DNA of 37,485 nucleotides from Melioribacter roseus (GTDB lineage: Bacteria; Bacteroidota; Ignavibacteria; Ignavibacteriales; Melioribacteraceae). Position 1 is the stretch's first letter; every line of letters starts with the position of its first letter. Under the pieces are notes generated by a model. The model did no database searches. It was not told where the DNA came from and saw only the letters and a program-made list of their open reading frames with translations. Positions 17,073 through 31,288 of the stretch are shown in pieces. Made by a program: the position numbers and the translations under genes. The DNA is taken from positions 1 to 37,485 of the forward strand of contig DYJK01000023.1 of the NCBI GenBank assembly GCA_020723165.1, given 5' to 3'.

Positions 17073-20000
17073 CTAGGATAACTTCTTTTCTATATTGTTA
17101 AAATAGTAATTCTCCTGATAATGAATAGTTGGTTTAATTGGATCAAATGTCGATAGATCAACAATCGAATCGCTAATCTTCAATATTTTTTCGTTGAATC
17201 CATTGTTAAAATATCCCGGTAACCACGAGCTATTATTCCCAACGTAATTATGTAATCTGTTTACTTTATTGATCTCATGATTGATATCTGATAGAGAGTC
17301 ATAGTGAAATTGATCTGAGAAATATGCAGCCAGTTTTGATATGATTTCCCAATTTTCAAATTCATGCAAGCCATTAATTATCTTAGGGACAACTTGATAA
17401 GTATTATCACATCTAACAAAAGTACCGGGCTGCTCAAGATAAGTTGCTGCCGGTAATACAACATCTGCTTCTATCGTTGTATCTGTGCGGAATGAATCGC
17501 AGACAACTGTGAATTCAACACCGTTAAAATATTTTCTGTTATTTTTTTCGATTAACGGATCTTCTCCAAAAATCAATAATGCTTTTATTTCTCCCCTTCT
17601 TAATTTTTTTGAAAGATCATTAGTTTTGAAAATATTTTTCAAATCAATCGACCATAAATTTCCGATTCTTGTTACTTCTTCATGCTCGCTATTCTTAACA
17701 TACCCGGGGAGATGATTTGGATTAGCGCCCATCTCCATTGAACCGACAGCATTGTTAAATTCACGCAATATGATAATACCGTTATTCGGCTTTCCTATTC
17801 TACCAGTTAATGTTAGGAAGTTACCCACAGCTTGTAAATCATTAATCGATTTATCACTCGTTGAATCTAAGTTATAAACAAATATCACATTTGATTCAAG
17901 GTTTTGTAACAGCCCGATAAACCTAGAATATTTCTCTTCATCTATACCGGTAATTTGTAAAAAATCTTGACCAATATATCCAGCCATGCCTTTTGAAAAT
18001 TCATCTATATCAATTTTATGTTGATGTACGAAATCTTCATTAATTTTATTTTTATCGATTAAGTGATTGATAAGACTATTAATAAGTAAAGTATTAGTTC
18101 CTTTTTTACTATCTACCCAAAGGTCAGCATATTTAGTAAGCTGAATTTCAGAAGAATTTATCAGTACAAGTTTAGCACCATTTTTCTGTGCTGCTTTTAT
18201 CTTCATCTCCATTACTAAATTATCTTCGGACAGATTTGAATTTAGTACAACAATAATATCTGCTTTGTCGATTTCATCAATAGCAACCGTTGATGATGTA
18301 AAACCGAGCATATCATCAAGACTATTTTGTTCGATACCGTACAGAAGATTTGAAAAGCTTGATATGTTATTATTCTTTAGTCCAACCCTCGCAAATTTTT
18401 GAAGCAAATAGAGTTCCTCATTTGATAGCTTTGGAGATGCCATCACAGCGATTGAATCGCCGCCATATTCTTCAATTATAGCTCTTAATTTTTTACTTAC
18501 ATAAAGCAGCGCATCTTCTTCATTTACATTATGAATTAAACCGTTTCTACGAATCTGTGGATTTAGTATTCTGTCCTTTTCCAGAAGATACCGATGACCA
18601 AACCTACCTTTTGAGCATAGATAACCTTTGTTATGTGATTCTTTTATTTCTTCTGTCGAATTGGAAACGAAGAAAATATCGTCATTAATTTTTTTGATGT
18701 TGACCTTGCATCCTATCGAGCAGAAATTGCATACGGTCTCGTGATTTTCTTTCGGTAAAGTCCCTAATATTTTAAATGGATATTTTTCGCTAATAGCACC
18801 GGTTGGACACGCATCAATGCAATTACCGCAGTTGATACAGTTCGTCTCTAAAAGTGATTTTTCCATAGCCGGTTTAACAACAGATTTAAATCCACGATAA
18901 ACAAAACCAAGAGCCGATACCTTTAACACCTCTGTGCAAGTTCTAACACACTTTCCGCAATTAATACACTTGTTGGGATCTAACTGTATGAAGGGATGCC
19001 TCCCATCAATCATATATTTTTTTGTCTCGCCTACAAATTCATTTATATCAATATTATATTCATCGCAATATTTTCTTAGCTGGCAGTCAGAATATTCCGA
19101 ACATCCGCATTCAAGGCATCTTTCTGTTTCATATAAACATTGCTCTTCAGAAAATCCGAGGTCTACTTCTTTGAAATTATGTACACGATCAATTATTGAT
19201 AACTCATACATTTTTTCGCGTGCTAATTTTTTTGTCTGTTCAAATTCCCTTTCGGATAAATTTGAAAGTTTGTGTTTCAAGCTGTAGTAATGGCTGTTCT
19301 CTTTTTCAGCTTTACCTAATTTGATAAAACTCATTATAGATTTAGCGGCTTTTTTACCTTGAGCGATAGACATTATTGCAGTTAATGGACCGGTCACAAC
19401 ATCACCACCGGCAAATACACCCGGTATTGATGTCTCTAACGTTTCATTGTTCACACATACTGTTCCCCATTTCTCAAGTGTACAGTCTTTATCATATTTA
19501 GAGAAATTGTTATCAACAGATTGGCCAATTGCCCCTATCAAAAAATCACAATCAATTTTAAATTCTGATCCTACTACCGGTACCGGTTTCGGTCTTTCAC
19601 CGGGTTTGCTCTCAACAAGTTCCATCTTCAAACATTCTACGCCTTTCAACTTATTATTTTCTGATATGATTGATTTCGGATTCGTCAAGAATAAAATTTC
19701 AATTCCTTCTTTTTGTGCTGCTTCTATTTCTTCATGGTTAGCCGGCATTTCATTTATACTTCTTCTGTAAACAATTTTTACTTCTTCTGCACCGCAGCGC
19801 ATAGCTGTGCGTGCTGCATCAATTGCAGTGTTTCCGCCGCCAACTACAATTACTCTACCATGCAGTTGTGGAATGTAACTCAAAACAACTTCACGTAGAA
19901 AATCGATGCCTCTAAAGATTCCAAATATTTTATCTTCTCCATCCAAGCCGAGTTTGCTTGCTTTATGTGCACCAACACTAAGATAAACTGAATCATATCC

Positions 20001-20831
20001 GCTTCGTAATAAATCTTTTATACTGAAATCAACCCCCAGTTCAACGCTGGTTTTTACTTCTACACCAAGATCAATAATCCAATTTATTTCCATGTCTAAA
20101 ATCTTCTTCGGTAACCGGTATTCAGGAATTCCATAGCGCAGCATTCCCCCTAACTTGGGAAGTTTTTCAAAAATTGTAACAGAATATCCTTCAAGCGTTA
20201 GGTAGTAAGCGCAAGATAATCCCGATGGACCACCGCCAACAACTGCAACTTTTTTATTATTTTTTTCCTTAACAGTTGGTCTCCATTTATGCGGTGCGTC
20301 TTCATCAGCTATAAACCTTTTGAGTGCATTTACAGCTATCGGTTCATCAACATAATTTCTTCTGCAAGCTGCTTCGCAATCACGCACGCAAACTCTTCCA
20401 ATGGAAAGCGGTAATGGATTATTTTCTTTAACAAGTTTAAGCGCTTCTTCGTATTTACCCATCGATATAAGTGCAATATAAGTTTGAGCATCAACACCCG
20501 CCGGACAGTTATTTTTGCATGGACCAATACAATCAGCATAATGATTGGACATCAATAACTCTAGAGCAGTTTTCCTTGAATCGATAACCAATTTACTTTT
20601 TGTCTGTATTTTCATTCCATTCTGAATCTTAGTAGAACATGACGGGACTAGTTTGTTCATCCCTTCAACCTCAACAACACATAAAAAACATGATGTAAAA
20701 TGTTCTAATCTTTTATCATGGCACAAGGTTGGAATGCTGTCAATATTATTTTCGTGAACAACTTCAAAAATAGTTTTATCCGGTGTCGTTAATATTTGTT
20801 TACCGTTAATTGTTACATTGATTTGTTCCAT
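17073..20831 (-). CDS. stnC-like: Stn-type transhydrogenase large subunit: NuoG-like protein fused to a GltD/NfnB-like NADP(H) domain
   Basis: The 1252-residue multidomain redox protein begins with a plant-type [2Fe-2S] domain (Cys37, Cys48, Cys51, Cys65). A His97/Cys101/Cys105/Cys109 segment then merges the NuoG His-Cys3 motif with the GltD-type Cys block (further Cys148, Cys152, Cys156). A GltD/NfnB flavoprotein domain spans about 193-520 (VVGGGPSGLSCAYYL, VVGGGNTAIDAARTAM, FAGGDVVTGPLTAI). A Cys-rich link starts at Cys572, followed by two ferredoxin-like 4Fe-4S motifs (about 620-690), a CNFCSIGC cluster motif (about 700) and a molybdopterin-oxidoreductase-like domain to the end. That domain lacks a Cys/Sec ligand where formate dehydrogenases have one (near NNNISSFSNLLYG, about 815-831), so it looks catalytically silent, as in NuoG. 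With NuoE- and NuoF-like genes upstream this matches the reported StnC architecture. A formate dehydrogenase role is the weaker alternative. Confidence 0.75.
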   Translation of the reverse strand: MEQINVTINGKQILTTPDKTIFEVVHENNIDSIPTLCHDKRLEHFTSCFLCVVEVEGMNKLVPSCSTKIQNGMKIQTKSKLVIDSRKTALELLMSNHYADCIGPCKNNCPAGVDAQTYIALISMGKYEEALKLVKENNPLPLSIGRVCVRDCEAACRRNYVDEPIAVNALKRFIADEDAPHKWRPTVKEKNNKKVAVVGGGPSGLSCAYYLTLEGYSVTIFEKLPKLGGMLRYGIPEYRLPKKILDMEINWIIDLGVEVKTSVELGVDFSIKDLLRSGYDSVYLSVGAHKASKLGLDGEDKIFGIFRGIDFLREVVLSYIPQLHGRVIVVGGGNTAIDAARTAMRCGAEEVKIVYRRSINEMPANHEEIEAAQKEGIEILFLTNPKSIISENNKLKGVECLKMELVESKPGERPKPVPVVGSEFKIDCDFLIGAIGQSVDNNFSKYDKDCTLEKWGTVCVNNETLETSIPGVFAGGDVVTGPLTAIMSIAQGKKAAKSIMSFIKLGKAEKENSHYYSLKHKLSNLSEREFEQTKKLAREKMYELSIIDRVHNFKEVDLGFSEEQCLYETERCLECGCSEYSDCQLRKYCDEYNIDINEFVGETKKYMIDGRHPFIQLDPNKCINCGKCVRTCTEVLKVSALGFVYRGFKSVVKPAMEKSLLETNCINCGNCIDACPTGAISEKYPFKILGTLPKENHETVCNFCSIGCKVNIKKINDDIFFVSNSTEEIKESHNKGYLCSKGRFGHRYLLEKDRILNPQIRRNGLIHNVNEEDALLYVSKKLRAIIEEYGGDSIAVMASPKLSNEELYLLQKFARVGLKNNNISSFSNLLYGIEQNSLDDMLGFTSSTVAIDEIDKADIIVVLNSNLSEDNLVMEMKIKAAQKNGAKLVLINSSEIQLTKYADLWVDSKKGTNTLLINSLINHLIDKNKINEDFVHQHKIDIDEFSKGMAGYIGQDFLQITGIDEEKYSRFIGLLQNLESNVIFVYNLDSTSDKSINDLQAVGNFLTLTGRIGKPNNGIIILREFNNAVGSMEMGANPNHLPGYVKNSEHEEVTRIGNLWSIDLKNIFKTNDLSKKLRRGEIKALLIFGEDPLIEKNNRKYFNGVEFTVVCDSFRTDTTIEADVVLPAATYLEQPGTFVRCDNTYQVVPKIINGLHEFENWEIISKLAAYFSDQFHYDSLSDINHEINKVNRLHNYVGNNSSWLPGYFNNGFNEKILKISDSIVDLSTFDPIKPTIHYQENYYFNNIEKKLS

Positions 20832-20848
20832 AGCTTAACCCCGAATTA

Positions 20849-22612
20849 TTATACTTTGATTATTGCATCAAGTTTACAGACATCATAGCACTTACCGCAT
20901 TTAATACAAAGACCTTCGTTGAGAACGTGAACTTCTTTTTTATTACCGGTTATTGCACCGCTTGGACAAACTTTTATACACACGCCGCATCCTTTACAAT
21001 TTTCTTCAACAATTTGGTACGAGATGAGAGAAGAACAATTATGCGCCGGACACTTTTTATCAAAAATGTGCGCTTCATATTCTTCACGGAAATATTTTAG
21101 TGTTGTTAAAACTGGATTAGGTGCTGTCTGCCCTAAACCGCAAAGACTGCCCATTTTAATTTTGGAAGCAAGTTCTTCCAGCAATGAAATATCCCGTTCC
21201 CTTCCTTCACCATCAGTAATCCTCTCCAATATTTCTAACATTCGCTTAGTCCCGATCCTACAGAAGGTACATTTACCGCAAGATTCTAATTGGGTGAAAT
21301 TGAGAAAATATTTTGCAAGATCGACCATACATGTTGTATCGTCAAGTATTATAAGTCCGCCGGAACCCATGATAGCACCGGTTCGTGTAATTTCATCGTA
21401 ATCAATTTTAAGATCACCCATGCTTGCCGGGATGCATCCGCCGGATGGACCGCCAATTTGTACTGCTTTAAACTTTCTATTATTTTTTATTCCGCCGCCA
21501 ACTTCATAGACTATTTCGTTGATCGTCATGCCCATCGGTACTTCAACCAAACCGCTTCTCTTAACTTTACCGGCAAGAGCAAAAACTTTTGTACCCTTAC
21601 TTTTTTCCGTGCCCATAGCGGCATATTCTTGCCAGCCATGCAAAATTATCCATGATACATTCGCATACGTTTCAACATTATTAATATTTGTAGGTTTACC
21701 CCACAATCCTTTATTAGCCGGAAACGGCGGACGCAGTCTAGGCACACCTCTTTTACCTTCGATAGATGCCATCAATGCAGTTTCTTCTCCGCATACAAAT
21801 GCACCGGCACCTTCTTTTATCTTAATATCAAAGTTGAATTTTGAACCGAATATTTTTTCTCCTAAAAATCCCCAGCTTCTACATTGATTCAGTGCATTCC
21901 TCAATCGTTTAATCGCTAGAGGATATTCCGCACGGCAATAAATGTATCCTTCGTCTGCACCAATAGTATAAGCAGCGATCATCATACCTTCTAAAACCGA
22001 ATGGGGGTCTCCTTCAAGAACACTTCTATCCATGAATGCACCCGGGTCACCTTCATCAGCATTACAGATTACATACTTTTTATCTGAGATTGTCTGCTTC
22101 GCAAATTTCCATTTCATCCCGGTTGAAAAACCTCCGCCGCCTCTGCCGCGTAAACCTGATTTTATTATTTGATCAATCACTTCTTCCGGAGAATAGTTTT
22201 CAATTACCGTCTGAATAGCTTTATACCCGTCGCGAGAAATGTACTCATCAATAATGTTGGGATTTATAACTCCGCAATTTCTTAATACAATTCTCTTCTG
22301 GTTTTTGAAAAATGATTCCTCTTTACAAGACTCATTACTTTTTATAACCCATTCTGAAACCGGATTTCCATTTATCAAATGTTCGTTTACAATCTTACCT
22401 ACTTTATCAACAGTAACTTTAGAGTAGAGACAAGAATTCTTTTCGTCTTCAATTTCTACAAGAGCTTCTTCGTAGCACATTCCCATACAGCCGGTTTCAC
22501 TCAATTCGGCATCAATGTTTTTGCTGCGGAGTTCTTCTTTAAATTTGTTGAATATTAATTCACCGCCGGCAGAAATGCCGCATGTTCCAAGCCCGACTTT
22601 AATTTTTTTCAT
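20849..22612 (-). CDS. stnB-like: NuoF/HydB-like FMN, NADH and Fe-S subunit (bifurcating core)
   Basis: The 587-residue product starts at ATG 22612. A thioredoxin-like N-terminal domain has Cys11, Cys42 and Cys46. The NuoF core carries GRGGGGFSTGMKW (NADH/FMN), NADEGDPGAFMDRS, GAGAFVCGEETALMASIEG and an SLBB-like segment, with the 4Fe-4S motif ESCGKCTFCRIG. At the C terminus are two ferredoxin-type 4Fe-4S motifs (CKGCGVCIKVCP and CIKCGKCYDVC). The C-terminal ferredoxin pair separates it from complex I NuoF and links it to HydB/HndC/StnB of electron-bifurcating enzymes. A longer reading to 22696 exists, but it would be encoded wholly within the nuoE-like gene; this start overlaps that gene by only 14 bp. 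Confidence 0.88.
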   Translation of the reverse strand: MKKIKVGLGTCGISAGGELIFNKFKEELRSKNIDAELSETGCMGMCYEEALVEIEDEKNSCLYSKVTVDKVGKIVNEHLINGNPVSEWVIKSNESCKEESFFKNQKRIVLRNCGVINPNIIDEYISRDGYKAIQTVIENYSPEEVIDQIIKSGLRGRGGGGFSTGMKWKFAKQTISDKKYVICNADEGDPGAFMDRSVLEGDPHSVLEGMMIAAYTIGADEGYIYCRAEYPLAIKRLRNALNQCRSWGFLGEKIFGSKFNFDIKIKEGAGAFVCGEETALMASIEGKRGVPRLRPPFPANKGLWGKPTNINNVETYANVSWIILHGWQEYAAMGTEKSKGTKVFALAGKVKRSGLVEVPMGMTINEIVYEVGGGIKNNRKFKAVQIGGPSGGCIPASMGDLKIDYDEITRTGAIMGSGGLIILDDTTCMVDLAKYFLNFTQLESCGKCTFCRIGTKRMLEILERITDGEGRERDISLLEELASKIKMGSLCGLGQTAPNPVLTTLKYFREEYEAHIFDKKCPAHNCSSLISYQIVEENCKGCGVCIKVCPSGAITGNKKEVHVLNEGLCIKCGKCYDVCKLDAIIKV

Positions 22613-23117
22613 ATTCAACTCTGCATAGTTCTTCGGTTTTAATTTTCTTAATCGTCTTTTTGATCTTATCAATCGTGAGATTTCCATAAGTATCATTGTT
22701 AACCATCATAACCGGTGCTAATGAGCAGCATCCTAAACATGCAACTGATAGAAGACTAAATACACCATCGTCTGTTGTTTCACCGACTGTAATGCCCAAT
22801 TCATCATTGAGAGCTGAGAGAACTGTTTTTGCACCGTTCACATGGCAAGCAGTACCTTCACATATCCTGACAATATTTTTACCCATTGGTTTCAACCGGA
22901 ACTGTGCATAGAACGTGATAACACCGTAAATTTCCGCAGCCGGAATTTTAACTAACTCGCTTATGTAGTGAATTACTTTTTCCGGGACATATCCATAAGA
23001 ATCTTGTGCAGACTGTAACAAAGGAATTAGTGAACCGTGCTGATGTCTTTTGTTAATGAGGTCAACTTTGAAGTTGAGAATTTCTTTTTTCTCCTCGAGT
23101 ATTTCTACATCTTCCAT
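22599..23117 (-). CDS. stnA-like: NuoE/HydC-like [2Fe-2S] thioredoxin-fold subunit
   Basis: The 172-residue product has the standard NuoE length. An N-terminal helical bundle (LIPLLQSAQDSYGYVPEKVI) precedes the thioredoxin-like domain that holds one [2Fe-2S] cluster through Cys86, Cys91, Cys127 and Cys131 (CEGTAC and CLGCC blocks). It is the partner of the NuoF-like subunit encoded directly downstream, with overlapping ends. The start ATG has AAGGTG 7 nt upstream. No other complex I genes (NuoA-D, H-N) are present, so it belongs to a soluble NuoEF-type module. Confidence 0.92.
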   Translation of the reverse strand: MEDVEILEEKKEILNFKVDLINKRHQHGSLIPLLQSAQDSYGYVPEKVIHYISELVKIPAAEIYGVITFYAQFRLKPMGKNIVRICEGTACHVNGAKTVLSALNDELGITVGETTDDGVFSLLSVACLGCCSLAPVMMVNNDTYGNLTIDKIKKTIKKIKTEELCRVEYEKN

Positions 23118-26990: not shown

Positions 26991-29900
26991 TCAATTGTGA
27001 TGAAATTTATCTATAAAATTTTCGTATCGATACCCTGCTTCACCCGATAATCTTTTGATTTCTCTATATTTTTCAAACGAGTTGTTTATTAATTCAACAT
27101 TCTCATTTGTGCTTTTATCATTTTGCTGTTTAATATTTTGTTCCTTCAATCTGTAAATCAAGTAAAGTGAAAAGAGCCAATTTAATAATTCCTCAAAATT
27201 CTCTTTGCTGTAATAAATAATTCCTTCGTATTCATTTACACCAATAAAATTTCTAATTACCGGTTTTTCAAGAATAGAAACCAATCCGTTACAACTTACT
27301 TGTGGAGTTAATTTATCTTTTGCAACAGTATCATTATCAAAAATATTATTTAGTTCTATTGATGTTTCCCGTAAACTATTTAAAAGTAATAATTCATGGT
27401 AAACTTCTGCATCGCCTCTACCCAGTCTTCTAAAAATACTTCTGATAGGTGTATCGAGGAGTAACTCATCAATATAATCTTTTTGAGTAACCCTGGTTAC
27501 ATTTTTCACAATTTCTTCAATGCTTGAAATCATTAACCACATTATAAGAAGAACAGAATTTTCACTGTAGTTGGAATCAGGACTTGTGATTATAGTTTTA
27601 TGAAGTTCATGGTTCTGCCGATTGTTATCAACCGGGAAATTTTGTTCTAATATGTTATTCAATTTTTTAACAGCAATAATTTGATTATCAAACTTTTTCA
27701 GTATTTCTTTAACGCCATCAGAAACGCCAAAATGGTTGTTCACATTTTTCAAAAGTTTATTAAACTTTTTATCAATAAATATTACTCTGTCTTCTTTTCG
27801 CTTCTTCTCATCTCCATCAAGAATACATGTCTTGATAAATCCTTCAAGTGATTCTTCATCAAACATTTGCTCAAAGGCAGTGTGCACCGGTTCGAGCTTC
27901 ATTTCAGCTAATGCTCTTAAAATACTTGGTACACCTCTTCCTTGTAATTTTTTTATTAACTTTTCATAATCACCGCTCTCATCATATACTTCCCTGAAAT
28001 CGAGATAGACTAAATACCTGAAGGCGTTGAGTTCAACATGAAAACCGTTCTTTGAAAAATCTTTACCCGATCTAACATATTCTAAGTTGGTAACATGTTC
28101 TCTAAAAATATAATAATGATGGGGTGAAGAATCTATTGAAAGTGCTTCCGCTATTGTTACATCCTTCGGTTCTTTGTTAACCAGTTTCAATGATGATCTA
28201 AATATTTTTCCGCTTGTGTACTGGTATTTATTATTATAAAATATCAGTGCTCTTTCTCCAAATTCTCCATTAGAATATGCATAAACATTTTCATTTAGAC
28301 CGCCGAGATCATCAATAAAATCAAACAGCCAATAGTTAGTAACGTTGCTGAATAGATATCTTCTTTTTGCGAGTGGGAAAATTTCTCTTTTGTGCCGGTC
28401 AATCAACCATTGATTTGGTACTTCATGATAATACGCACGCTGGTATTCCATTCCATACTTTTCAGTAAAACCTTCTATTTGCCCATGTGCAAACATCGGC
28501 AGACCGGGAAGGGTAACCATCAAAGTACAGACACCAAAATATTTATCATCCGTACCGAATTGTTTAATCGCTGTCTCTTCATCAGGATTGCTCATAAAAT
28601 TTACATATCGTTTTAATATTTCCGGTTCGAATTCGAGTGTGTTCGAAATTAGATCGCGGTATTTCGCATTTTCTTCTTTCATCATCATATGCATGAATGC
28701 TGAATTGTACACCCTATGCATACCTAAAGAACGTACAAAGTACCCTTCCATCAGCCAGAATGCTTCGGCAAGTAAAAGTGTTTCTGGCATTTCTGAATTT
28801 ATTCGATCAACTACTTCGCGCCAGAATTCTTTCGGGAATAACTGGTCAAATTCACTTTGACTCATTGAATAATCTGCACGTGAAGGTATGTCGCCTCCTC
28901 TGCCCGGCGCCGGATACCACAAACGTGAAAAATGTTTTTTTGCAAGAGTCATTGCTGCATCAAACCGGATGATTGAAAACTTGCGTGCTACTTCAAATAT
29001 TTTTTGTATTACCGCTTCCCTAACCTCCGAGCGAATCATATTGAGCTGTGCGGTATCATTCCACGGCATGTTTGTACCATCATTCCCGTGATAAATATAA
29101 CGTGTTTCGCCGGTCTTGTTATCAATTCTCTGAAACACAACTGCTGCGTCGCTTCTGCTCCAATACCCATCTTCAATTCTCAATACTATTGATGGATCAT
29201 CTGATAAATCGGGACCGGTAAAATGATAATTCGGAAAAGGCGGATAAGCTGATTGAATAAAATAATCGGGATGTTCAATTACCCATTTTGAAAAGATCCC
29301 GGTATGATTCGGTACCATATCACTTGCAAGGCGGATACCTCTTTTGCGTGCGCGCTCGTTTAAATTGTGGTACGCATATTCTCCCCCCAGATCCCAGGCA
29401 ATCTGATAATCATATAATGAATATGCTGAAGCAACTGCATCTATGTTTCCTAAAATGTGTTTTATTCTTTTTGAAGCAATACTCCGTTCCCAAATTCCAA
29501 TTAACCACAAGCCGTTAAACCCATATTGTGCAAGTTGATCTAATTCTTCATCCGGTATTTGATCCAAAGTTTTAATATGCCGCTGATATTTTTTTGATAA
29601 TTGATCGAGCCACACATAAGAATTTTTTGCTATCATAATTACATTCGGCATCCAATCAACATCCCTCGTAAAATTTTCTGGTTCATCATAATCTTTCCAA
29701 GCATCGAGCGCATACTTGTAACCCGATTTACCAAGTGATAAAAATTCTGCTTCGCTCATTTGCCCTTTGTATTGAGGTGCAAATGTTGGTGCACCACCGC
29801 CTCCGCCAAAATGTAATATTGTGTAATCCTCTTTAATTAAATCTTTGCTGCTTAAAATTCTTGTAAGAAATTTTTCATCGAGAAGGATTCCCCACTTATC

Positions 29901-30623
29901 GCGGATAAAATCTAACTGCGCTTCTAAGTTATCAGGATTTTGCAGAATAGGAGTTTTGAAAAATGTAAGCAAATCCTGGTTATCCGGACCAAACTTCTTT
30001 TCGCTCTTAAAAAAATCTTCGAGTGCTGAGATTGATTTTTGTAACGCTTCCTTTTCAGTTAAATAATTTTTATCAAATAATTCTATAATGTTTTTGTTAG
30101 CCGGATTAATATTTGCAATCGTAAGAAGCATCATCTCTTCGAGTGTAATTTCAGCATTAGTCCTATCAGCAGTAAATGAATTCAAATAATCAAATGTGCT
30201 GATCTTGCCTTTGTAAACATCTATTGGTGGAAAAACAGAAATAAAATCGAATAACAGTTTTCTAGTGTCATCCTCGCCAATATTTGTATTCAAGTAATTA
30301 AGTGCCTTTGCTACTACACCGGGATTAACTTGTATTTCATACAATCTAAAAAGGTAATGATAAATTTCATCCAACAAACCGGCAGCATTTACTTCGCCGA
30401 CTTTAACTTTATTTTCAGGGTGACGAATATCATTGATCTTCTTTACAAAATTTCTCACCGCAAGGTTATTAACGAATACAACATTCCCGTTAATAGAAAA
30501 GAGTTCATCATCAACCTCATATTTTTTTCTGATTTCTTTGGCGATGTGAAATTCAAATCTTGGGAATAATGCGTTTAATGGAGAACACTTCAGGAAAAAA
30601 TTAGTTTGGAGTAGTATATACAT
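26991..30623 (-). CDS. Very large unusual GH13 (alpha-amylase superfamily) protein
   Basis: The 1210-residue product starts at ATG 30623 (AAAGG 5 nt upstream), preferred over an in-frame TTG at 30644. No signal peptide is seen, so it is probably cytoplasmic. Residues 1-300 are mainly helical and unrecognised. A Gly-rich FGGGGGAPTFAP precedes a GH13 barrel (about 330-760): region I DMVPNH (Asp435-His440), region II IIRFDAA with nucleophile Asp555, region III LLLAEAFW with acid/base Glu620, and a region IV-like NPDEET with Asp681, where the usual His is Pro680. The last 400 residues are again helical and unrecognised. GH13 enzymes hydrolyse or rearrange alpha-glucans; the specificity is unknown. 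It lies 32 bp after a PIN-domain gene. Confidence 0.75.
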   Translation of the reverse strand: MYILLQTNFFLKCSPLNALFPRFEFHIAKEIRKKYEVDDELFSINGNVVFVNNLAVRNFVKKINDIRHPENKVKVGEVNAAGLLDEIYHYLFRLYEIQVNPGVVAKALNYLNTNIGEDDTRKLLFDFISVFPPIDVYKGKISTFDYLNSFTADRTNAEITLEEMMLLTIANINPANKNIIELFDKNYLTEKEALQKSISALEDFFKSEKKFGPDNQDLLTFFKTPILQNPDNLEAQLDFIRDKWGILLDEKFLTRILSSKDLIKEDYTILHFGGGGGAPTFAPQYKGQMSEAEFLSLGKSGYKYALDAWKDYDEPENFTRDVDWMPNVIMIAKNSYVWLDQLSKKYQRHIKTLDQIPDEELDQLAQYGFNGLWLIGIWERSIASKRIKHILGNIDAVASAYSLYDYQIAWDLGGEYAYHNLNERARKRGIRLASDMVPNHTGIFSKWVIEHPDYFIQSAYPPFPNYHFTGPDLSDDPSIVLRIEDGYWSRSDAAVVFQRIDNKTGETRYIYHGNDGTNMPWNDTAQLNMIRSEVREAVIQKIFEVARKFSIIRFDAAMTLAKKHFSRLWYPAPGRGGDIPSRADYSMSQSEFDQLFPKEFWREVVDRINSEMPETLLLAEAFWLMEGYFVRSLGMHRVYNSAFMHMMMKEENAKYRDLISNTLEFEPEILKRYVNFMSNPDEETAIKQFGTDDKYFGVCTLMVTLPGLPMFAHGQIEGFTEKYGMEYQRAYYHEVPNQWLIDRHKREIFPLAKRRYLFSNVTNYWLFDFIDDLGGLNENVYAYSNGEFGERALIFYNNKYQYTSGKIFRSSLKLVNKEPKDVTIAEALSIDSSPHHYYIFREHVTNLEYVRSGKDFSKNGFHVELNAFRYLVYLDFREVYDESGDYEKLIKKLQGRGVPSILRALAEMKLEPVHTAFEQMFDEESLEGFIKTCILDGDEKKRKEDRVIFIDKKFNKLLKNVNNHFGVSDGVKEILKKFDNQIIAVKKLNNILEQNFPVDNNRQNHELHKTIITSPDSNYSENSVLLIMWLMISSIEEIVKNVTRVTQKDYIDELLLDTPIRSIFRRLGRGDAEVYHELLLLNSLRETSIELNNIFDNDTVAKDKLTPQVSCNGLVSILEKPVIRNFIGVNEYEGIIYYSKENFEELLNWLFSLYLIYRLKEQNIKQQNDKSTNENVELINNSFEKYREIKRLSGEAGYRYENFIDKFHHN

Positions 30624-30654
30624 AGCAGCCTTTAAAATTTCCAATAAATAATAA

Positions 30655-31074
30655 TCATAATACAGCTAATGGGTTTATAATCGTTACGCCTTTTATTACT
30701 TGTCCTGAATTTAGATCTTCTGTAAAGAGCACAGTACATTTAGCCGCCTCAGAAGTAACGATAATCAAAGCATCCCAAAAAGATATTTTGTTAAGCAAAC
30801 TAATATCAATCGCATCTTTGATCATTTCTAATGTAACCGTAATTATCTCGAATTTTTCAAAACTGTTAATTATTTCTTTTACTGCCAGTGGTTCAGCCCC
30901 TAATTTTTTGGTCGCAGCTACATAAAATTCTTGTAAAACCTGGGTAGAAATAACAATAGTGTTGCTTTCAGCCACTTCCTTGATTAACGCTCTGGCTTTT
31001 TTCTGCTTTGTTTTGCTATACTTATCAATAGAGTAAATAAAAATATTAGTATCAAAGAATATTTTATTTCTCAT
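30655..31074 (-). CDS. PIN-domain ribonuclease toxin (VapC-like)
   Basis: The 139-residue product starts at ATG 31074 inside the end of the antitoxin gene. PIN-domain acidic residues are present: FFDTNIFIYSID near the start (Asp8), a VLQEFYVA glutamate in the middle, and FWDALIIVTSEAAKC with LFTEDL at the C terminus. Such toxins cleave RNA and are neutralised by the partner antitoxin. The 11-bp overlap with the upstream ribbon-helix-helix gene is the usual type II toxin-antitoxin layout. The GH13 gene follows 32 bp later, so read-through is possible. Confidence 0.82.
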   Translation of the reverse strand: MRNKIFFDTNIFIYSIDKYSKTKQKKARALIKEVAESNTIVISTQVLQEFYVAATKKLGAEPLAVKEIINSFEKFEIITVTLEMIKDAIDISLLNKISFWDALIIVTSEAAKCTVLFTEDLNSGQVIKGVTIINPLAVL

Positions 31075-31288
31075 AAAGTTCAGCCCTATTCCATTTATGT
31101 CCTTTGGAATTAGCATCGGTTTTATCCATCAGCGAGAAACAATGATCGATCCATTTGATATCTTTTTGTTCAATTTCTTTGGATAGTAATTCCCGGATTA
31201 AAGCATTGAGTGATTTACCATGACGTTGTGCATGCTTACGGCCCTTTTTGAGAAGATCATCATCGAAAGAAAGAGTTATATTGGGCAT
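31064..31288 (-). CDS. Ribbon-helix-helix antitoxin of the PIN toxin
   Basis: The 74-residue product starts at ATG 31288, with GGAGG 5 nt upstream; a GTG four codons earlier overlaps that site. The N terminus ITLSFDDDLLKKGRKHAQRH and GKSLNALIRELLSKEI form a strand plus two helices typical of CopG/MetJ-type DNA-binding antitoxins. The C-terminal tail, with Trp residues, should bind the toxin. The dimer would also repress the pair's own promoter. It is directly upstream of and overlapping the PIN gene. Confidence 0.8.
   Translation of the reverse strand: MPNITLSFDDDLLKKGRKHAQRHGKSLNALIRELLSKEIEQKDIKWIDHCFSLMDKTDANSKGHKWNRAELYEK

Follow-up and report, generated by a model that had tools for sequence, protein, structure and literature searches.

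In a 37,485-nucleotide stretch of DNA from Melioribacter roseus (contig DYJK01000023.1; class Ignavibacteria, order Ignavibacteriales, phylum Bacteroidota), hereafter called the window, one gene encodes a long GH13 protein that, together with its relatives (the long clade), stands without a subfamily placement. We consider it probable, at roughly 60%, that this protein is a cytosolic and catalytically intact enzyme acting on the cell's own storage α-glucan, i.e., glycogen or maltodextrin. The cytosolic location, the substrate and a preference for transfer over hydrolysis are steps that we infer, and the long clade is predicted to be, most likely, an active cytosolic glycogen transglycosylase. 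The gene lies as follows:

26991..30623, reverse strand: gene of the long GH13 protein, 1210 residues from the ATG at 30623, or 1217 residues if translation starts at the TTG at 30644

The earlier note on this DNA had described a protein of 1210 residues, which holds for the open reading frame (ORF) on the reverse strand counted from the ATG at 30623; a forward-strand reading of the same coordinates was ruled out by stops throughout. Residue numbers below follow the 1217-residue count unless stated otherwise, and subtraction of 7 gives the 1210-residue count from the ATG. The N-terminal hydrophobicity of the window protein is modest and no signal peptide was seen, as judged without a signal-peptide predictor. 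In four relatives (L042, L044, L052 and L057), the open frame leaves fewer than 10 residues ahead of the conserved start. Both observations agree with the earlier statement that a signal peptide is lacking.

The catalytic barrel of the window protein is matched by PF00128 with 40 bits, compared to a Pfam cut-off of 22, and contains the following conserved sequence regions (CSRs), for which counts refer to the sequences that cover each position:

28458..29549, reverse strand: GH13 catalytic barrel, residues 366-729, PF00128 match
29304..29321, reverse strand: CSR-I, DMVPNH, residues 442-447; D, N and H each in 97/97
28956..28970, reverse strand: CSR-II, IRFDA, with the nucleophile D562 (D555 from the ATG); R and D in 99/99
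28761..28772, reverse strand: CSR-III, LAEA, with the acid/base E627 (E620 from the ATG); 100/100
28578..28598, reverse strand: CSR-IV, FMSNPDE, with P687 and the stabiliser D688 (D681 from the ATG); N, P, D and E each in 100/100
28479..28505, reverse strand: CSR-VII, GLPMFAHGQ, with a GQ end as in GH13_38, GH13_48 and GH13_49; Q in 100/100

These counts were obtained from a set of 100 sequences comprising 56 related loci (window included), 32 sequences from Chloroflexota and 12 from Chlorobia and relatives; the set includes fragments but no duplicate retrievals from one genome. Five loci (L054, L055, L057, L058 and L060) were counted in the first group though labelled Chloroflexota or Neomarinimicrobiota. 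L054 and L055 are very close rows bearing two different labels. Within residues 320-800, the Chloroflexota and Chlorobia groups are 57-71% identical to the window protein, and within the N-terminal domain 20-43%.

The four acidic residues that had looked intact in the earlier note (D435, D555, E620 and D681 in the ATG count) indeed fall into CSR-I, CSR-II, CSR-III and CSR-IV, and the Asp nucleophile (99/99), Glu acid/base (100/100) and Asp stabiliser (100/100) of GH13 are present wherever covered. The replacement of the region-IV His by Pro (P680 from the ATG) was likewise borne out, as all 100 sequences read NPD at a place where NHD is typical for most GH13 subfamilies without being defining (PMC11239784). 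Decay is unlikely, because the catalytic residues are invariant where covered and the Pro itself is found in 100 of 100 sequences. As a pattern of conservation, the invariant core argues for an active enzyme. In most GH13 enzymes, the region-IV His helps to hold the -1 sugar, and the long clade is a natural set for asking what this residue does in GH13. Pro also precedes the region-IV Asp (NTPD) in all five loci of GlgE genes of the class. Since GlgE is an active transferase, a changed region IV does not in itself indicate that activity has been lost and is compatible with transferase activity.

The reaction would be a retaining double displacement, with D562 serving as nucleophile, E627 as acid/base and D688 as stabiliser. 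The clade-wide Pro at the position of the region-IV His, together with the long domain B and the helical flanks on both sides, points to a specialised transglycosylase and not a general amylase; disproportionation is counted under this transferase reading. If one reaction is to be named, α-1,6 branching would be the likeliest, with the protein standing in for GlgB, an enzyme not detected in a single carrier of the class. That the long clade provides a further glycogen branching enzyme in three lineages, set apart from the GH13 GlgB and GH57 types by a domain plan that combines a GH13 barrel bearing Pro at the region-IV His with a helical N-terminal domain lacking a fold match, is a tentative proposal to which we give clearly less than an even chance. 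It is the boldest step of our interpretation, a testable favourite and not a result.

We found 55 loci related to the window gene in GTDB contigs, mostly labelled Ignavibacteria, Melioribacter or Bacteroidetes, and a few labelled Anaerolineae, Chloroflexota, Aminicenantes or Neomarinimicrobiota. L037 (PMCY01000036.1), which carries the label Aminicenantes, groups with Ignavibacteria in the tree, and its bin has probably been mislabelled. In the class, 103 of 245 genomes match the profile, and the long protein, whole or in large pieces, occurs in 77 of the 245 (the carriers). Within the order of the window, the long protein is present in 43/43 genomes, distributed over three families (f1, 28/28; f2, 14/14; f3, 1/1). 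In the phylum Chloroflexota, 98 of 301 genomes match; by our count, 56 reach at least 283 bits, and we take these 56 for the long protein. Among 247 genomes of the window's own phylum, 134 match, and 54 of those with strong matches belong to one family (f35). In L134, L137 and L147, the long gene is next to genes for a Rieske protein and cytochrome b, and in L139 next to a cytochrome b gene, the neighbours being named by Pfam in L134, L147 and L139. We take this gene order to be that of green sulfur bacteria, and because the long gene lies beside it, we infer that f35 corresponds to the Chlorobiaceae. The long proteins form a real, conserved GH13 clade common to Ignavibacteria, some Chloroflexota and apparent green sulfur bacteria. 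No description of the long clade was found in open-licence literature, as judged by titles and abstract openings, nor was a relevant paper found for the locus tag CT0304.

GlgB (TIGR01515) exceeds its cut-off in 79 of the 245 class genomes and in none of the 77 carriers (Fisher 6.6e-17 on the assumption, which does not hold, of independent genomes). Another four matches to GlgB are fragments that stay below the cut-off, all in non-carriers. GT5 and GT35 were each found in 74 of the 77 carriers; as GT35 and GT5 occur in 229 and 236 of the 245 class genomes, such co-occurrence is uninformative. The M. roseus genome itself encodes GlgA, a GT35 phosphorylase, MalQ and a pullulanase, as well as amylases with signal or lipoprotein-like N-termini (judged by eye), and it contains neither a GlgB over the cut-off nor a GlgE domain. 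Its one GH57 match turned out to be a GH38 α-mannosidase, and contig C3 additionally bears two GH13 fragments that did not resolve into a gene. The long gene may perform a glycogen-building step whose usual enzyme the carriers of the class appear to lack. If this holds true, three lineages share a storage-metabolism enzyme that has so far gone without a name, and carrier genomes annotated by GlgB alone would be mistaken for ones incapable of branching glycogen. The question is testable because the clade occurs in the apparent Chlorobiaceae, which have cultured members and for which glycogen storage is described: one report describes Chlorobium limicola as storing glycogen that is α-1,6-branched (PMC11269200).

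For the gene neighbourhoods, 36 loci were available (32 derived from Chloroflexota and four from the 55 related loci), 35 of which contain the long gene sufficiently complete to be found; flank lengths differ and ORFs were called mechanically. An α-glucan enzyme named by Pfam lies close to the long gene in 9 of these 35 loci, as a raw count. In L095, L105 and L106, a GT35 phosphorylase and a GH57 gene are located upstream on the same strand as the long gene. L096 carries GH57, GlgX (859 bits, cut-off 641) and GlgE upstream, and GT35 stands just before these in L168, so that the upstream set in the genome of L096 reads phosphorylase-GH57-GlgX-GlgE. There was no GlgB within the stretches around L096, where GlgE adjoins the long gene. 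A GH57-DUF3536 gene lies near the long gene in L104, L108, L110, L112 and L117, and also in L095. In L141, from another family of the window's phylum, galT and galK are found near the long gene. A thiolase-type ORF, identified by reading, is located near the long gene in the Chloroflexota loci L104, L108, L110, L111, L112 and L117.

A clear placement in a characterised GH13 subfamily, which the earlier note had left as the finding that would overturn its proposal, was looked for by NCBIfam scores, profile comparison and limited trees, and none was found. The best NCBIfam match of the window protein is MalA_Halo with 37.6 bits, compared to a cut-off of 875, and the others are also far below theirs. 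Judging from a profile comparison of the cores (8e-58 over 433 columns), the nearest kin of the long clade is a group of uncharacterised short GH13 proteins of about 480-560 residues. Members of this group include a copy in the M. roseus genome (G000:C179), proteins of many other genomes and WP_260111333.1 from a Rhizobium plasmid. Both groups have DTAQLN-, AEA[FY]W- and GQxEG-like stretches in common. The short group differs in that it lacks the long flanks, has a shorter domain B and mostly reads GxRCDMA in CSR-II and ENHDE in CSR-IV, whereas the long clade reads IRFDAA and NPDE; in the profile comparison, NPDE aligns with ENHDE. On two Rhizobium plasmids (L132 and L133), the short GH13 gene directly follows a gene annotated as glucosidase, and in L093 and L094 it lies near a galT-like gene.

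The trees, computed by a quick method and with long branches, contained only the long clade, the short group, GlgE and GH13 rows of the M. roseus genome; the second tree was calculated without L002 and L004 (GH13 proteins of this genome) and L066 (short group). In both trees, a single branch separates all long rows from the rest (26/26, support 99, then 32/32, support 100), and another does so for the short rows (10/10, support 100, then 14/14, support 97). The union of both groups obtained a support of 92 in the first tree and 67 in the second.

This kinship bears on a possible, though doubtful, alternative, i.e., that the protein is an intracellular α-glucan hydrolase (an amylase or maltogenic amylase) which breaks down glycogen beside phosphorylase. 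For L064, a member of the short group, the closest PDB structures are those of the amylases 4gkl and 3dhu, and MalA_Halo was the best NCBIfam match for all three short proteins tested. Both groups therefore belong near GH13_38, GH13_48 and GH13_49, and a kinship with GH13_48/49 would suggest a role in glycogen breakdown. According to one study, the types to which 4gkl, 3dhu and MalA_Halo belong are hydrolases of GH13_48/49 (PMC11239784). Known members of GH13_48, GH13_49 and GH13_38 are the T. neapolitana maltogenic amylase, the H. japonica amylase and the B. cellulosilyticus α-glucosidase. The traits given for GH13_48/49 are a Cys preceding the CSR-II nucleophile (81% across both groups) and GQ at the end of CSR-VII, the latter also present in GH13_38 and some other groups (PMC11239784). 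The long clade resembles these subfamilies in the GQ of CSR-VII (56/56 rows; Q in 100/100) and in remote matches to 3dhu, 4gkl and MalA_Halo, and it differs from them in lacking the Cys (IRFDAA in 55/55 covered rows), in the Pro in place of the CSR-IV His and in its helical flanks. The phosphorylase upstream of the long gene in four Chloroflexota genomes would also suit a hydrolase. However, hydrolysis leaves both the GlgB exclusion and the clade-wide loss of the region-IV His without account.

We regard it as improbable that the protein is a transferase of the GlgE kind, with a glycosyl phosphate such as maltose 1-phosphate as its donor. GlgE, the maltosyltransferase of GH13_3, shares with the long clade the Pro directly before the region-IV Asp in its five loci, a clade joining the long rows and GlgE was not rejected (p value of the approximately unbiased test, 0.41), and Foldseek ranks GlgE first, starting from a poor barrel model. 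Against this, the match between the long clade and the GlgE profile is 2.5e-4 over 99 columns, with a thin profile of three close sequences, compared to 8e-58 over 433 columns for the short group. GlgE reads TPD in CSR-IV and QC in CSR-I, whereas the long clade keeps the NH of CSR-I; the GlgE_dom_N_S domain (PF11896) characteristic of GlgE was not detected in the window protein (Pfam, E up to 1), and the M. roseus genome has no GlgE domain. Moreover, GlgE and the long gene stand side by side in L096. Kinship with GlgE was thus not adopted from the common Pro, given the weak profile match, though on the quick trees the two Pro residues might still share an origin. As the barrel model is poor, no conclusion was drawn from GlgE and trehalose synthase standing atop the fold lists, nor from the geometry around the Pro. 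With GlgB, a GH13 branching enzyme, the likeness is one of proposed role only, through the complementary distribution in the class: TIGR01515 is not among the NCBIfam matches of the window protein (E up to 1), and Pfam detected no CBM48 in it.

Finally, it is very improbable that the protein is non-catalytic and uses its GH13 fold for glycogen binding or regulation. The lost region-IV His, the large flanks of unassigned role and the presence in the comparison list of 4F2hc/CD98, GH13 folds that lack enzyme activity, could be quoted for this reading; against it stand the nucleophile, acid/base, stabiliser, CSR-I NH and CSR-II Arg, all invariant where covered among the 100 sequences.

The earlier note had offered either a new subfamily acting on internal glucan or a non-hydrolytic relative. 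The former gains sequence-level support from the conserved clade, scores far below the NCBIfam cut-offs, the absence of a visible signal peptide and the glycogen-enzyme neighbours in some Chloroflexota. The latter is disfavoured if a dead homologue is meant, since the catalytic positions are invariant where covered in 100 sequences from three lineages; in the sense of a transferase, it is the reading we favour.

Several observations weigh against a storage-glucan transglycosylase, and against branching in particular. The members of the clade are known from sequence alone, and the barrel is poor in the full-length structure model, with blocks mostly at 25-65 in the predicted local distance difference test (pLDDT). 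The exclusion between the long gene and GlgB follows family lines, since of 29 families 8 contain carriers and 7 contain GlgB, without overlap, and by our own hypergeometric reckoning the chance of such an exclusion at family level is about 0.07. Lack of GlgB is common, since 89 of the 245 class genomes have neither GlgB nor the long gene, and in one carrier (G134) a GlgB-like protein of full length scores 269 bits, short of the cut-off of 464. The genome-wide search for GlgB covered the 245 class genomes only, and the check for a GH57 branching enzyme only the M. roseus genome. Three carriers gave no GT5 match and three no GT35 match. Judging from synteny, the loci that lend neighbourhood support represent about two Chloroflexota lineages, and 26 of 35 loci lend none. 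In the Ignavibacteria and Chlorobiaceae-like loci, inspection by eye showed no α-glucan neighbours; the genes there read as MutS, Rieske/cytochrome b, rfb genes and similar ones. Operon evidence in Ignavibacteria amounts to none, the common neighbours being read by eye as MutS, a lipoprotein, DAHP synthase and prephenate dehydrogenase.

The flanks of the barrel contain three features of interest:

29859..30575, reverse strand: N-terminal all-helical domain, residues 24-262, confident model, PDB match not found
30357..30371, reverse strand: DEIYH, residues 92-96, conserved [DH]ExxH motif of the N-terminal domain, 95 covered sequences
26994..27938, reverse strand: C-terminal region following domain C, variable in sequence and, in the full-length model, mostly helical

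In both flanks, Pfam gave no match above cut-off, in line with the earlier note, which had found nothing recognisable in them; its estimate of 400 unrecognised C-terminal residues comes closer to 310-330 once domain C is counted. Structure prediction of the flanks yielded a confident, helical N-terminal domain, with a pLDDT of 90 and a predicted template modelling score of 0.88 for residues 24-262 (alignment of 51 sequences); the C-terminal part was seen in the full-length model only, where it is helical with mostly good confidence. A Foldseek search with the N-terminal model gave no match at E ≤0.001 (best 0.32), a second aligner reached a best Z of 2.9, and a profile search of the PDB returned nothing better than MZT1 (E 0.58). 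The domain is thus one for which no solved structure was found, which in itself does not establish the fold as new. Within the [DH]ExxH motif, E93 and H96 are each present in 92 of 95 sequences, and the first position is D in 65, H in 27 and another residue in 3; a zinc peptidase reading was set aside, the first position being Asp in 65/95. Glu was further found at 169 in 91/94 and at 170 in 94/94 sequences. Stand-alone use of the domain was rejected: in 201 Chloroflexota genomes, 34 of 36 matches lie within frames of 827-1677 residues, and the remaining two are in short frames, one being a fragment and the other marginal (E 3.7e-4).

The C-terminal region is 17-68% identical to that of the window protein in 21 relatives and has a GVNxYEGxxYxSKExFEELxxW motif, which is conserved, close to its end. 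The Chloroflexota forms with about 900-960 residues lack this region or retain a much shorter version. Its best sequence matches, VPS4 MIT-type chains at E 0.03, were read as chance.

Elsewhere in the window, an ORF at 30655-31116 on the reverse strand reads as a PIN-domain protein and ends 31 bases before the GH13 ATG; a similar ORF is located near the long GH13 gene in L143. Further away, at 17073-23117 on the reverse strand, a row of ORFs reads as NuoE-like, NuoF-like and a fusion of 1252 residues, the latter combining an NADPH-oxidoreductase-like part with a molybdopterin oxidoreductase-like part. By reading only, this row may represent an electron-bifurcating complex.

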